A stretch of DNA of 64,000 bases, from assembly GCF_000189775.2 (NCBI RefSeq), contig NC_015555.1:1127001-1191000 (forward strand), in the 5' to 3' direction. Position numbers and translations under genes: made by a program. Under the pieces are notes generated by a model. That model did not search any database, was not told the origin of the DNA, and saw only the letters and a program-made list of their open reading frames with translations. This stretch comes from Thermoanaerobacterium xylanolyticum LX-11. GTDB lineage: Bacteria; Bacillota; Thermoanaerobacteria; Thermoanaerobacterales; Thermoanaerobacteraceae. Within the stretch, counting starts at the first letter, position 1. Each line of letters begins with the position of its first letter. Below, one piece after another: positions 5,639-44,057 of the stretch.

Positions 5639-6070
5639 TTGGTATTAGAAAAGCACAATTACGATTATGATCTAAAGCCGTATTATGAAGAAAATAAAGG
5701 AAAGAAAACCAAAAAGAATAAGAAGCTTAAAAACCTTGCAGTAATAGTTTTTGTAGGATTTTTAAGCCTTACCGTTTTGTTTAGGTATGCGTTGATCTAT
5801 CAAAAATCTGTTGCATTAAGCAGCGTAGAGGCAAAAGCCAGTGAAATAGAAAAGTTAAACCAGCAGTTAGAAGTCCAAATTGCTTCAATGAGCGATCTGC
5901 AGAGAATAGAAGAAATAGCGAAAAATCAGTTAGGAATGGTAGAGCCTGATAAAGGGCAGATAGTCTACATGAGTGTTGGCAAACAAAATCAAGTCGCTGA
6001 GAAAAAAACAGATGATGAAAACAAAAATAAGACTTTTTGGGGAAGGATTTTGGGACTGCTGGTGAGATAG
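5639..6070 (+). CDS. ftsL: Cell division protein FtsL-like
   Basis: 143-residue bitopic protein. It has a lysine-rich cytoplasmic N-terminus (residues 18-32), a single membrane segment around 33-51, then an extracytoplasmic coiled coil (VEAKASEIEKLNQQLEVQI) and the RIEEIAKNQLGMVEPDKGQIVYM motif of FtsL/DivIC-type septum initiators. In the divisome FtsL pairs with DivIC and DivIB and activates septal PBP and FtsW. It starts at TTG 5639 behind AGGGGGA. Sequence conservation in this family is low, so the call rests on topology, the LGM motif and its place between rsmH and the class B PBP. Confidence 0.85.
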   Translation: MVLEKHNYDYDLKPYYEENKGKKTKKNKKLKNLAVIVFVGFLSLTVLFRYALIYQKSVALSSVEAKASEIEKLNQQLEVQIASMSDLQRIEEIAKNQLGMVEPDKGQIVYMSVGKQNQVAEKKTDDENKNKTFWGRILGLLVR

Positions 6071-6082
6071 GAGGGATTTTAA

Positions 6083-8158
6083 ATATCACCAAGCATTTCT
6101 ACCAAAAAGAGAATTTTATTTTTGCTGTTTTTTTCTATACTTATTATTAGCGTTCTCATTGTTAGGCTTTTTTGGATACAGATAGTAAAAAGCGATGAAT
6201 TTCAAAAGCTTGCCATACCTCAGTGGACATTAGACGTTGCAGTTACGCCAAAACGCGGCTTGATATTAGACAGAAATGGAAAGGCACTTGCTGAAAGCGC
6301 AAGTTCTAATAAAGTTAGCATAATACCGAAAGAAGTGAAAGACAGCCAAAAAGATGAAATTGCGTCAAAGCTGTCTGAGATTTTAAAAATCGACAAAGAA
6401 GATATCCTTAAAAAGATAAACAACAAGAATGTACAAGAGGTATTGATTGCAAGGAGAATTGATGATGATACGGCTAACAAGATAAGAAAATTAAATCTAC
6501 CTTGTATTGTAATATCTGGAGATACAAAAAGATATTATCCAGAGAAGAATTTAGCTTCCCACATACTTGGGTTTACAGGTGTAGACAATCAAGGACTGGA
6601 CGGAATCGAGTCGGTATACGACAGCTATTTAAGAGGAATACCTGGAAGGATTTCGTCGCCAGTTGATGCATTGGGCAGGAAAATGGGGAATGGTGAAGAA
6701 GAATACATCCCACCTATAGATGGTTACAATGTCGTTTTGACGATTGATTCAAACATACAGCATTTTGCTGAGAAAGCTCTTGATGATGCGTATGCACATA
6801 CTAAGCCGACAAAAGGTGCTGTTGCAATCGTAATGGATCCTAAGACAGGTGATATTTTAGCCATGGCATCAAGACCTGATTACGATCCAAACAACCCATT
6901 TGCAGGTTCCAAAAGCGATTGGTTTAAAAATTGGCGAGATAAGGCTATATCGGATGCTTACGAACCCGGCTCAGTTTTCAAGACGGTTACAGCGTCAGCA
7001 GCATTGGAGGAAGGTGTTGTTGGGTTAAATGAGCAATTTTATGATCCAGGATATATTATGGTTGCAGGGCAGAGAATAAATTGTTGGGCCACACATTACA
7101 GCGAAACATTTGTACAAGGAGTCCAAAATTCCTGCAACGTTGTTTTTGCGACAGTTGCCCAAAGGCTTGGAGTAGACAAATTGTACAAGTACATTCATGA
7201 ATTTGGCTTTGGAGAAACCACCGGCATAACATTGCCTGGAGAAGCACCTGGCCTTGTAATGAAAGAAAAAGATGTAGGTCCTGTAGAGCTTGCTACAAAT
7301 TCATTCGGACAGGGTATTGCGGTTACACCGCTTCAAATGATACGAGCGGTTTCAGCGATAGTAAATGGTGGGAAATTGATGGAGCCTCATATAGTCAAAG
7401 AGATAGTCGATTCTGATGGGAAACCTATAAAAGAATTCAAACCAACCGTAATAAGGCAAGTGATATCCGAAAAGACATCAGCTACAATGAGGCAGATACT
7501 TGAAAGTGTAGTATCCGAAGGCACAGGTAAGGCAGGTTACATAGAAGGGTATGATGTTGGAGGAAAAACAGGCACTACAGAAAAATATACACCTGGAAAA
7601 TACGTGGCTTCATACGTGGGATTTGCACCTGCAGAAGATCCAAAGGTGATAGCGCTTGTGGTGATTGATGAACCTAATGCCGAAACCCACTTTGGTAGTG
7701 CGTTAGCAGGACCTGTAGTAAGAAGTATATTGTATGATACTTTGACGTACTTAAATGTAAAACCAAAAGGCATTGTAGTGAAGCCTCTTGTAAAAGTTCC
7801 AGATGTAAGGAATTTAAACTTGAATGAGGCTCAAAATGCATTGTTAAAAGATAAGCTGCAATTTTCCATCGAAGGAACTGGAAACACAGTTGTAGACCAA
7901 ATGCCTAAACCTGGGGCAATGGTAGAAGAAGATTCGCAAATTGTCTTGTATTTAAATGAATACAATAATAACGGAAAGGTTGATGTTCCTGATCTAAAAG
8001 GAAAATCTATCACAGAAGCGAGTAACATATTAAGCTCTTTAGGGCTGAAAATAAAAATCAATGGTTCTGGTATTGCTGTAAGCCAGAAGCCAGAAAAAGG
8101 TGAAAAAGTTGATAAAGGAACAACTGTTGAAGTCGACTTTAGGCCACTGGAAAATTAA
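6083..8158 (+). CDS. spoVD: Class B penicillin-binding protein with two PASTA domains, SpoVD/PBP2B type (AUA start proposed)
   Basis: About 691-residue transpeptidase that cross-links septal or spore-cortex peptidoglycan. Order: short cytoplasmic STKKR, one membrane segment, PBP dimerisation domain, transpeptidase domain with SVFK (Ser297, Lys300), SCN (Ser350) and KTG (Lys495), then two PASTA repeats (about 572-633 and 634-691). GGAGGG (6070-6075) overlaps the ftsL stop, and seven bases later comes ATA 6083, giving (M)SPSISTKKRILFLLFF. The first ATG/GTG/TTG in frame is TTG 6122, which has no SD and would start inside the membrane helix. I therefore propose AUA as the start. It is the only class B PBP gene in the cluster, so it may serve both vegetative and sporulation roles. 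Confidence 0.92.
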   Translation: MSPSISTKKRILFLLFFSILIISVLIVRLFWIQIVKSDEFQKLAIPQWTLDVAVTPKRGLILDRNGKALAESASSNKVSIIPKEVKDSQKDEIASKLSEILKIDKEDILKKINNKNVQEVLIARRIDDDTANKIRKLNLPCIVISGDTKRYYPEKNLASHILGFTGVDNQGLDGIESVYDSYLRGIPGRISSPVDALGRKMGNGEEEYIPPIDGYNVVLTIDSNIQHFAEKALDDAYAHTKPTKGAVAIVMDPKTGDILAMASRPDYDPNNPFAGSKSDWFKNWRDKAISDAYEPGSVFKTVTASAALEEGVVGLNEQFYDPGYIMVAGQRINCWATHYSETFVQGVQNSCNVVFATVAQRLGVDKLYKYIHEFGFGETTGITLPGEAPGLVMKEKDVGPVELATNSFGQGIAVTPLQMIRAVSAIVNGGKLMEPHIVKEIVDSDGKPIKEFKPTVIRQVISEKTSATMRQILESVVSEGTGKAGYIEGYDVGGKTGTTEKYTPGKYVASYVGFAPAEDPKVIALVVIDEPNAETHFGSALAGPVVRSILYDTLTYLNVKPKGIVVKPLVKVPDVRNLNLNEAQNALLKDKLQFSIEGTGNTVVDQMPKPGAMVEEDSQIVLYLNEYNNNGKVDVPDLKGKSITEASNILSSLGLKIKINGSGIAVSQKPEKGEKVDKGTTVEVDFRPLEN

Positions 8159-41603: not shown

Positions 41604-41634
41604 TAAGATAGATTTATCATTGGAAGGTGCAATA

Positions 41635-43311
41635 ATGAAGACATTATTGGTGGCATTAAACGCTAAATACTATCATACAAATTTAGCCATAAGAAATATT
41701 AAGCTGTATTGCAATTCTATGGACATCCAGCTTTTAGAAATGACCATAAATGATGATTTGGATTTAATTTTATATAATATCCTAAATAAAAGGCCTGATG
41801 TCATTGGATTCTCGTGCTATATATGGAATATAGATAAAGTGCTGAAGCTTTGTGAATACATAAAAAAGGTCAATAAAGATATTTTAATAGTTCTTGGAGG
41901 ACCTGAAGTATCTTTTGATTTAGATGATTTATTGAAAATTGGTGTTGCAGATTTTATTGTGTTAGGCGAAGGGGAAGCAACTTTCAAGAATCTTCTACAA
42001 AAAATCCATAATGGCGAAAATGTGTATGACTTAAATGGCATAAGTTATATGAAGGATGGAAAAGTAATATCAAGAGAAAATACTGATTATGTTTGCTTGG
42101 ATGATATTCCATTTCCTTATGATGGGGAGGATATTTCCAATAAGCTTGTGTATTATGAGACATCCAGAGGGTGTCCTTTTAGATGTTCTTATTGCTTATC
42201 ATCTCTTGATAATAAGTTGAGATATGCCAGCATTGAAAAAGTCAGAGATGATTTAGAGAAGCTGACAAACATGGGCGCAAAAATTGTAAAGCTTATTGAC
42301 AGATCTTTTGACAGCAATATAAAAAGAGCGGTAGAAATATTAGACATAATAAGAGGTTTGAGGAGCGACACAGTATTTCATTGTGAAGTTAATCCTGAAT
42401 TAGTCAATGAAGTATTTATAAATAGCTTAAAAGGCATAGAAGACAGAATTCAATTTGAAGTAGGCATACAGACGACTAACAAGGAAACTTTAAAGAACGT
42501 GTCGAGAAATCCAGACGTTAGTGGTGCATTAAATGGCATAAAACTTATCATCAATGCAGGTGTAAAGGTGCATGTAGATCTAATCGCTGGATTGCCTGGC
42601 GATGACTTTGATTCGATTGTAAAATCTTTTAACGACGTATATAAGTTAAATCCTGATGAAATTCAGTTGGGCTTTTTAAAGCTTCTAAAAGGGACCAGAA
42701 TTAGAAAAAACAAAGATATCTATGGCATCAAATATAAAAGTGATCCACCGTATGAAGTTCTGATGACCAATACAATATCTTACATGGAGCTGTATGAGCT
42801 TAAAAATATCGCTTTCTTATTAGATAAGTATTACAATTCTGGGAAATTTAAAATGTCATTAAGATTTTTGCTTGATTTTTTTAAAGATCCATTTGAATTG
42901 TACAGCCGTTTGAATTGTTTTTGGGAAGAAAACGGATTTTATGGGAAAAAGCATTCTTTAAATGATTTATTTGATATTATTTATAGATTTGCCCTTTCGG
43001 GAGGTGTAGATACTGATTATTTTAAAGATTATTTAAGGTTTGACTATTTGTACTCTACTAACAATAAGGCATATCCTGATTGCCTTAAAGAGGATAAAAA
43101 AGTACCAGATGAAGTAAAATCATTGTTGCGGAATGATGAATGGTTAAAGCGCAATCTACCGGCAGCAATTGGTATGTCTAACTCTGAAAAAAATAAGAAT
43201 CTCTCTATAGGCTTTTTTAAGCATGATGTTTTAAATATAGAAGGAGGAAATGTGTACATAACCTTCCTTCACTGTGATGATAAAACATATTATGCAAAAA
43301 TAAATGTTTAA
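41635..43311 (+). CDS. B12-binding-domain radical SAM protein (DUF4080 type)
   Basis: 558-residue protein. An N-terminal cobalamin-binding-like Rossmann domain (IGFSCYIWNIDKV, ILIVLGGPEVSFD, LGEGEATF) precedes a radical SAM domain with CPFRCSYC (Cys180, Cys184, Cys187). Then come FHCEVNPELV and FEVGIQTTNKETL, typical of the Elp3/MiaB-like barrel, and a C-terminal DUF4080-like region. The substrate is unknown; relatives modify tRNA, lipids or small metabolites. ATG 41635 follows GGAAGGTG; an in-frame GGA-rich extension upstream has no support. It ends 11 bases before the GDPD gene, so they share a transcript. Confidence 0.87.
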   Translation: MKTLLVALNAKYYHTNLAIRNIKLYCNSMDIQLLEMTINDDLDLILYNILNKRPDVIGFSCYIWNIDKVLKLCEYIKKVNKDILIVLGGPEVSFDLDDLLKIGVADFIVLGEGEATFKNLLQKIHNGENVYDLNGISYMKDGKVISRENTDYVCLDDIPFPYDGEDISNKLVYYETSRGCPFRCSYCLSSLDNKLRYASIEKVRDDLEKLTNMGAKIVKLIDRSFDSNIKRAVEILDIIRGLRSDTVFHCEVNPELVNEVFINSLKGIEDRIQFEVGIQTTNKETLKNVSRNPDVSGALNGIKLIINAGVKVHVDLIAGLPGDDFDSIVKSFNDVYKLNPDEIQLGFLKLLKGTRIRKNKDIYGIKYKSDPPYEVLMTNTISYMELYELKNIAFLLDKYYNSGKFKMSLRFLLDFFKDPFELYSRLNCFWEENGFYGKKHSLNDLFDIIYRFALSGGVDTDYFKDYLRFDYLYSTNNKAYPDCLKEDKKVPDEVKSLLRNDEWLKRNLPAAIGMSNSEKNKNLSIGFFKHDVLNIEGGNVYITFLHCDDKTYYAKINV

Positions 43312-43322
43312 GGTGGGGTAGT

Positions 43323-44057
43323 ATTTCAAAGACGCTTGTCATAGCACACCGCGGTGATTCTAAAAATGCTCCGGAAAATACGCTGTCATCATTTAAGAGA
43401 GCCGTTGATGTAGGCTCAGACGGAATAGAATTGGATGTACAGCTTAGCAAAGACGGATATCTTGTGGTAATACACGATGAGCGAGTAGATAGGACGACTG
43501 ACGGAATAGGATATGTTAAAGACTATACATTGAAAGAGCTTAAAAGACTAAGCGCGGGAATAAAATTTGGCAGAGGTTATATGAATGAGAAGATACCTAC
43601 TTTAACAGAGGTTTTTGAGCTACTGGAAAATAAGAGTATATTGGTAAACATAGAGATAAAAAGTGGCTTGATATCATATCCAGGGATAGAAGAGAAACTG
43701 GTTAACTGTATATTTGAATATAATTTTGAGGATTTGGTTTTAATATCATCATTTAATCATTATAGCTTAAAGACAGTGAAGGATATTGAACCAAGGCTTA
43801 ACATTGGACTTTTGTATGAATGTGGACTTGTTGAACCGTGGCATATTGCAAATAGGATGCACGCATATTCGCTTCATCCATTTTATGTAAATATAATACC
43901 TGAGGTTGTGAAAGGGTGCAAATCGAATAATGTCCAATTGTTTCCGTGGACGATTGATGATGAAGAACTTATGAAAAACATGATACGATTGGGTGTTGAT
44001 GGAATAATCACTAATGATCCGTCAAAACTGATTGATTTAGAGAAAAAACTACATTAG
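43323..44057 (+). CDS. Glycerophosphodiester phosphodiesterase (AUU start proposed)
   Basis: 244-residue GDPD-type TIM barrel that cleaves glycerophosphodiesters to glycerol-3-phosphate and an alcohol. The catalytic segment IAHRGDSKNAPENTLSSF (His9, Arg10), ELDVQLSKDGYLVVIHD (metal Glu/Asp and second His) and LVNIEIK are complete, and PWTIDDEELMKNMIRLGVDG closes the barrel. There is no ATG, GTG or TTG before 43431, and starting there would remove the catalytic HRG. ATT 43323 is six bases after the SD AAGGTGG, giving (M)SKTLVIAHRG. I therefore annotate AUU as start. Confidence 0.9.
   Translation: MSKTLVIAHRGDSKNAPENTLSSFKRAVDVGSDGIELDVQLSKDGYLVVIHDERVDRTTDGIGYVKDYTLKELKRLSAGIKFGRGYMNEKIPTLTEVFELLENKSILVNIEIKSGLISYPGIEEKLVNCIFEYNFEDLVLISSFNHYSLKTVKDIEPRLNIGLLYECGLVEPWHIANRMHAYSLHPFYVNIIPEVVKGCKSNNVQLFPWTIDDEELMKNMIRLGVDGIITNDPSKLIDLEKKLH

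Follow-up and report, generated by a model that had tools for sequence, protein, structure and literature searches.

A candidate AUU start codon of recent origin in a GDPD-family gene of Thermoanaerobacterium xylanolyticum, and older non-AUG starts in the same genome

Where does translation begin in a gene whose reading frame opens without any usual start codon? The question is raised by a gene of the glycerophosphodiester phosphodiesterase (GDPD) family, which lies in a window of 64,000 nucleotides (the whole stretch of DNA that was analysed) inside the 2.53 Mb, one-contig genome of Thermoanaerobacterium xylanolyticum LX-11. The features of this locus are the following, in window coordinates:

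41620..43311, forward strand: upstream open reading frame of the radical-SAM type (named by eye), ending with TAA 43309-43311, 11 bases 5' of ATT
43310..43316, forward strand: Shine-Dalgarno-like AAGGTGG, 6 bases 5' of ATT and unchanged in the congeneric loci L002-L005
43323..43325, forward strand: candidate GDPD start codon ATT, with ATG at the same base in 8/8 congeneric orthologues
43323..44057, forward strand: GDPD gene, 244 codons plus stop, intact
43431..43433, forward strand: TTG, the first canonical in-frame start (codon 37 from ATT), which would remove the catalytic N-terminus

The first-pass annotation had proposed ATT 43323 as the start, arguing that no canonical in-frame codon precedes codon 37, that a start at this codon would strip the HRG and NAPENT motifs and that the ATT lies six bases after AAGGTGG. 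These three observations hold. The stop-to-stop frame extends from 43284 to 44057 on the forward strand and is devoid of ATG, GTG and TTG 5' of TTG 43431. The spacer between AAGGTGG and ATT is GGTAGT, and the duplex predicted between AAGGTGG and the tail of the 16S rRNA amounts to about -7.6 kcal/mol. Read from ATT, with the first residue taken as M, the product begins ISKTLVIAHRGDSKNAPENT... and matches the Pfam GDPD profile (PF03009) over positions 1-243 of 244 (E 1.7e-53, 182.7 bits for a cut-off of 23.6). Its first 20 codons include the region HRGDSKNAPENT, in which HRG and NAPENT are what we take to be the catalytic motifs of the family. From TTG 43431, the profile match opens only at position 29 and the HRG/NAPENT part is missing. 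RNA folding around the GDPD start shows nothing special (z -0.33). Entry by frameshifting or read-through from the upstream gene was considered and rejected, as the remaining frames hit TAA 43309 and TAG 43319. ATG 43304 and GTG 43313 share one frame that is ended by the same TAG, and no start is provided from another frame.

Comparison with relatives indicates how the ATT arose. Eight other genomes of the genus encode the GDPD protein (82–96% identity) and all of them (8/8) carry ATG at the site of ATT 43323. In L002-L005, the bases located just 5' of this ATG (taaggtggggtagt or taaggtgggatagt) are identical to those of this genome or show one difference. An ATG at the same base in all congeners implies that the start site is right and that ATG was replaced by ATT in this genome only. 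The alignment supports the proposed AUU well; it also reveals the ATG-bearing orthologues which, if joined to an absence of expression here, the annotation had held to speak against its own proposal. The observation goes beyond chance, since the congeners have ATG at the very base and a near-identical upstream region. The GDPD start is therefore not a conserved non-AUG start, all eight congeners carrying ATG, and no strengthening or extension of its Shine-Dalgarno sequence was found, AAGGTGG being the same as in the ATG orthologues.

At the scale of the order, a search with E<=1e-60 located GDPD at 24 places, which are spread over 21 of the 24 genomes. The HRG-proximal start is ATG at 22 of these places, ATT at one (this genome) and ATA at one (genome G023). 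The G023 orthologue (L021), which belongs to another family of the order, reads gggaaggtgat AAC ATA AAG CCG and its relative L019 has AAT ATG AAG; the ATA thus appears to be an independent ATG-to-ATA change, parallel to the GDPD ATT. As a separate observation, G007:C5:44490-45206 (L345) is a second GDPD copy that carries an in-frame TAG and is apparently broken.

The coding sequence bears the marks of purifying constraint. Omega is 0.098 against the nearest relative, and the changes assigned to this GDPD branch, polarised with three outgroups, comprise 12 synonymous and 3 non-synonymous ones. Judged from these substitutions, the frame is intact and constrained, without decay on this branch. 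Had the start been lost only very recently, however, the substitutions would look just like those of a functional gene, and a recent origin of the ATT is therefore compatible with constraint.

The rarity of such a change can be appreciated from a start-by-start comparison of this genome with its nearest relative (about 204 kb and 130 ORF pairs, 125 being compared and 5 skipped). Starts were found unchanged as ATG (73), GTG (17) or TTG (18), whereas two were changed: one TTG of the relative corresponds to GTG in this genome, and one ATG, that of GDPD, to ATT. Nine of the 125 pairs had no clear start and two fell in gaps. Four other differences (AGG, GCA, GTA and ATC) were rejected by eye, the start having been misaligned or wrongly chosen in the relative. 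GDPD is the sole true loss of a canonical start accepted among the 125 pairs, and no start lost in the relative with respect to this genome was found.

The window holds a second unusual start, which lies in spoVD (gene name from the first-pass annotation):

6083..6085, forward strand: spoVD start ATA, with GGAGGG at 6070-6075

The annotation had grouped spoVD and GDPD as two strong non-standard starts in 64 kb. Both appear real but they do not form one phenomenon, as that of spoVD is ancient and family-wide and that of GDPD is private. The family is represented by 20 loci (L107-L125 and L130), from Thermoanaerobacterium and sister genera, and all of them (20/20) have ATA at the same codon, with a stop codon directly 5' of it in most; L116 has a TTG immediately after the ATA. 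The other families of the order contribute four loci (L126-L129), in which the start either seems to differ or is not clear-cut. According to this distribution, the spoVD ATA appears as an old, kept start, unlike that of GDPD. The gene of IF3, infC (PF05198), has an ATT after AGGAGGTGCGTATTT and lacks any canonical codon before its conserved part; the start pattern was matched in 25/30 loci and this AUU also appears old. The AUU start of infC and its autoregulation are known elsewhere (PMC5472188, PMC13009471). As infC has ATT and no canonical alternative, AUU is very likely usable as a start in this organism. The Shine-Dalgarno sequence of GDPD is weaker than those found at the conserved non-AUG starts (-7.6 versus -9.8 to -15.7 kcal/mol).

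Taken as a whole, these data make it likely that GDPD is read from AUU 43323 following a recent ATG>ATT change confined to this lineage. The AUU start is supported by the full GDPD domain obtained only from ATT, by the ATG of the congeners, by constraint and by the AUU of infC in the same genome. The history and functioning of this start could be viewed as follows: one G>T substitution, on the branch that ends in this genome, would have converted the ancestral ATG into ATT and spared both the coding sequence and the ribosome binding site. The initiator tRNA would pair with AUU at its first and second positions, the 30S subunit being held by the Shine-Dalgarno helix. IF3 and the third-base mismatch would cut the yield to about a tenth of that of AUG, by analogy with the AUU/AUA starts of Staphylococcus aureus. 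Ribosomes ending the upstream gene at its TAA, 11 bases 5' of the ATT, could re-initiate at GDPD, coupling or re-initiation being possible at this distance. The AUU would then probably be a recent and weakly translated start. We infer that AUU is translated here, the level of this translation, and that the change belongs to the organism rather than to the record.

This last point could be contested if the public record is in error at this base and the organism carries ATG. The ATG of the 8/8 congeners, four of which have near-identical flanks, would fit such an error, and only one base, read in one isolate, is involved. However, the genome is a single contig and only one such start change was found among the 125 compared pairs. 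C-terminal disagreement was found in 3/130 pairs (in two of them the ORF of this genome is shorter than 70 aa, and in the third that of the relative is truncated) and no long ORF is broken in this genome among the 130 pairs; so few mismatches point to a record without sign of many indel errors, although they gauge indels and not base errors. A sequence error is thus considered unlikely.

Selection might instead have kept the AUU because GDPD is to be scarce or responsive to IF3, which would add selection to the reading preferred here. The independent ATG-to-ATH change in G023 (1 ATT and 1 ATA for 22 ATG over the 24 places) and the conserved non-AUG starts found elsewhere in this genome are consistent with such a down-tuning, but the non-AUG codon is private in both genomes and the Shine-Dalgarno sequence of GDPD has not been strengthened, so that a selected AUU seems quite unlikely. 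The deliberate low expression under IF3 control that the first-pass annotation had offered as one possibility finds no support in GDPD either, its AUU being unconserved and its Shine-Dalgarno sequence unstrengthened.

The ATT could also be real and the gene effectively off, the loss of the start being a first step of decay. This would agree with a private ATT and a Shine-Dalgarno sequence that was not strengthened, and the orthologue of G023, in another family, also lost its ATG (to ATA), which suggests that the loss of the start may be tolerated. However, the frame is open and constrained on this branch, infC indicates that AUU can serve as a start, and no second GDPD gene able to stand in was found in this genome at E<=0.001, which makes decay improbable. 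Finally, initiation at TTG 43431 or another codon is highly improbable since this TTG, although the first canonical codon of the frame, has a poor Shine-Dalgarno sequence (-3.5) and would cost positions 1-28 of the GDPD profile, HRG among them, and since the relatives show ATG where this genome has ATT.

The reading of GDPD from a recent AUU raises the question of whether start selection is relaxed in this genome, as the first-pass annotation had suggested. Besides infC and spoVD, four genes were retained as candidates, three of them under names that are presumed (ilvH, flavin oxidoreductase and hepS1-like):

G000:C1:1320797-1322377, reverse strand: rny, encoding RNase Y (L146/L157; class-wide loci L346-L375)
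G000:C1:12558-13100, forward strand: ilvH-like gene (L137/L182), with ATT, ATC or ATA behind GGGGTGAT across the genus and two other lineages
G000:C1:129527-130729, reverse strand: flavin oxidoreductase gene (L205)
G000:C1:1695504-1696052, reverse strand: hepS1-like gene (L265-L273)

In 36/36 genomes that represent the class, rny (PF12072 match) has a non-AUG codon behind AGGAGGTG, which is ATT in 30 cases and ATA in 6 (35 recognized by pattern and one, L367, read by eye). This gene has no good canonical start 5' of its transmembrane part; in some genomes, an in-frame GTG lies inside the Shine-Dalgarno sequence or a TTG lies a few codons downstream. The ilvH gene shows ATT then ATC or ATT, after GGTGAT, in 8/8 loci of the genus, ATA in a sister genus, and ATC and ATA in another family. 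A third genus has TTG at the site in six loci, GTG is found nearby in five loci of another family, and L188 possesses an ATG and a TTG farther upstream. In the flavin oxidoreductase gene, 6 loci read ACG or GCG and then ATA at the place where two relatives have ATG. The hepS1-like gene carries CTG at Shine-Dalgarno spacing in 9/9 loci of the genus. The case of murA2 is ambiguous, with a GTG beside the Shine-Dalgarno sequence. Loci without usable match were left out (L254-L259 for murA2, L210 and L214 for the oxidoreductase, L276-L282 for the hepS1-like gene), and rny loci L172 and L176-L180, which gave no usable match at first, were covered by the later class-wide comparison. Two side observations can be added. 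The stretch upstream of the flavin oxidoreductase gene (query residues 1-35) is a repeat present at many places in these genomes. In a distant genome (G058), an apparent CTG start lies behind AGGAGGG in L340:5874-6905 (forward strand), presumably a diaminopimelate-dehydrogenase-like gene.

An automated count considered non-canonical codons located behind a strong Shine-Dalgarno sequence in coding-like ORFs without good canonical start. It covered 620 kb of this genome, including a 220 kb stretch picked for containing both the window and infC. Observed ATH codons compare with expected ones as 6 versus 3.64 in this genome (504 ORFs), 5 versus 1.89 in G012 (307), 0 versus 1.36 in G026 (292) and 2 versus 1.55 in G058 (266), the orthologue check having been applied to the hits of this genome only; the excess is not convincing. 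Among the 12 ORFs flagged here, six were accepted on the basis of their orthologues (spoVD, infC, ilvH, flavin oxidoreductase, rny and the hepS1-like gene), murA2 was left ambiguous and the remaining five stand outside the accepted set. GDPD itself falls under the Shine-Dalgarno threshold of this count. A separate pass flagged 36/409 ORFs, an aspartokinase candidate among them; by eye, most appear to be chance occurrences or wrong frames. tRNA genes were found in 4/31 stretches of this genome. Relaxed start selection is thus suggested by the conserved AUH and CUG starts (infC, spoVD, rny, ilvH and others), but the automated count (6 versus 3.64) does not bear it out.

A broader hypothesis, which is doubtful, is that the class keeps conserved AUU, AUA, AUC and CUG starts on strong Shine-Dalgarno sequences, the genes concerned being jointly governed by IF3 activity, and that new AUH starts arise and persist more easily in this background, the AUU and AUA of GDPD being recent arrivals. 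These genes would include rny in all genomes of the class that were compared, infC, spoVD at that of the family, and ilvH, flavin oxidoreductase and the hepS1-like gene at that of the genus or beyond. If true, it would connect initiation fidelity with mRNA decay (RNase Y), with the making of the cell or spore wall and with the synthesis of branched amino acids. The titles and abstract openings surveyed in the literature mention no non-AUG start, be it in GDPD, spoVD or RNase Y, or in any gene of these genera. If confirmed, RNase Y and the other cases would extend to mRNA decay and wall synthesis the short list of genes governed by initiation fidelity, and this wider conserved pattern, RNase Y above all, is a more interesting lead than GDPD. 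As for GDPD, gene finders limited to ATG, GTG and TTG would cut it at codon 37 or call it broken. Sister species that differ naturally by ATG and ATT at this start, in almost the same sequence context, would offer a ready-made gauge of the cost of an AUU start.

Several known systems can be compared with GDPD. The pcnB gene of Escherichia coli resembles it by its AUU start, which reportedly keeps expression low (Binns and Masters 2002, as the title has it). In infC, the same AUU codon is used in the same genome, but infC has a conserved start, a strong Shine-Dalgarno sequence and a feedback logic, which GDPD does not have (PMC5472188, PMC13009471). Like GDPD, Streptomyces sigR has a non-AUG start (GTC) that limits one gene; this start is conserved and its control by IF3 experimentally proven, and nothing comparable is known for GDPD (PMC5472188). 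In S. aureus, another low-GC Gram-positive bacterium, citZ (AUA), cvfC1 (AUU) and ccpN (AUA) likewise use AUU or AUA behind a Shine-Dalgarno sequence, and reporters with such starts yield about 10% of AUG in poor medium (PMC13009471). These starts are proven by ribosome profiling and reporters, that of GDPD being predicted; conservation and an extended Shine-Dalgarno motif characterize cvfC1 and ccpN, and GDPD has neither (PMC13009471). The AUA of citZ is confined to one lineage; such a lineage-specific start change makes citZ a direct parallel (PMC13009471). By this analogy, the putative AUU start of GDPD is best seen as being of the same sort as the AUA start of S. aureus citZ.
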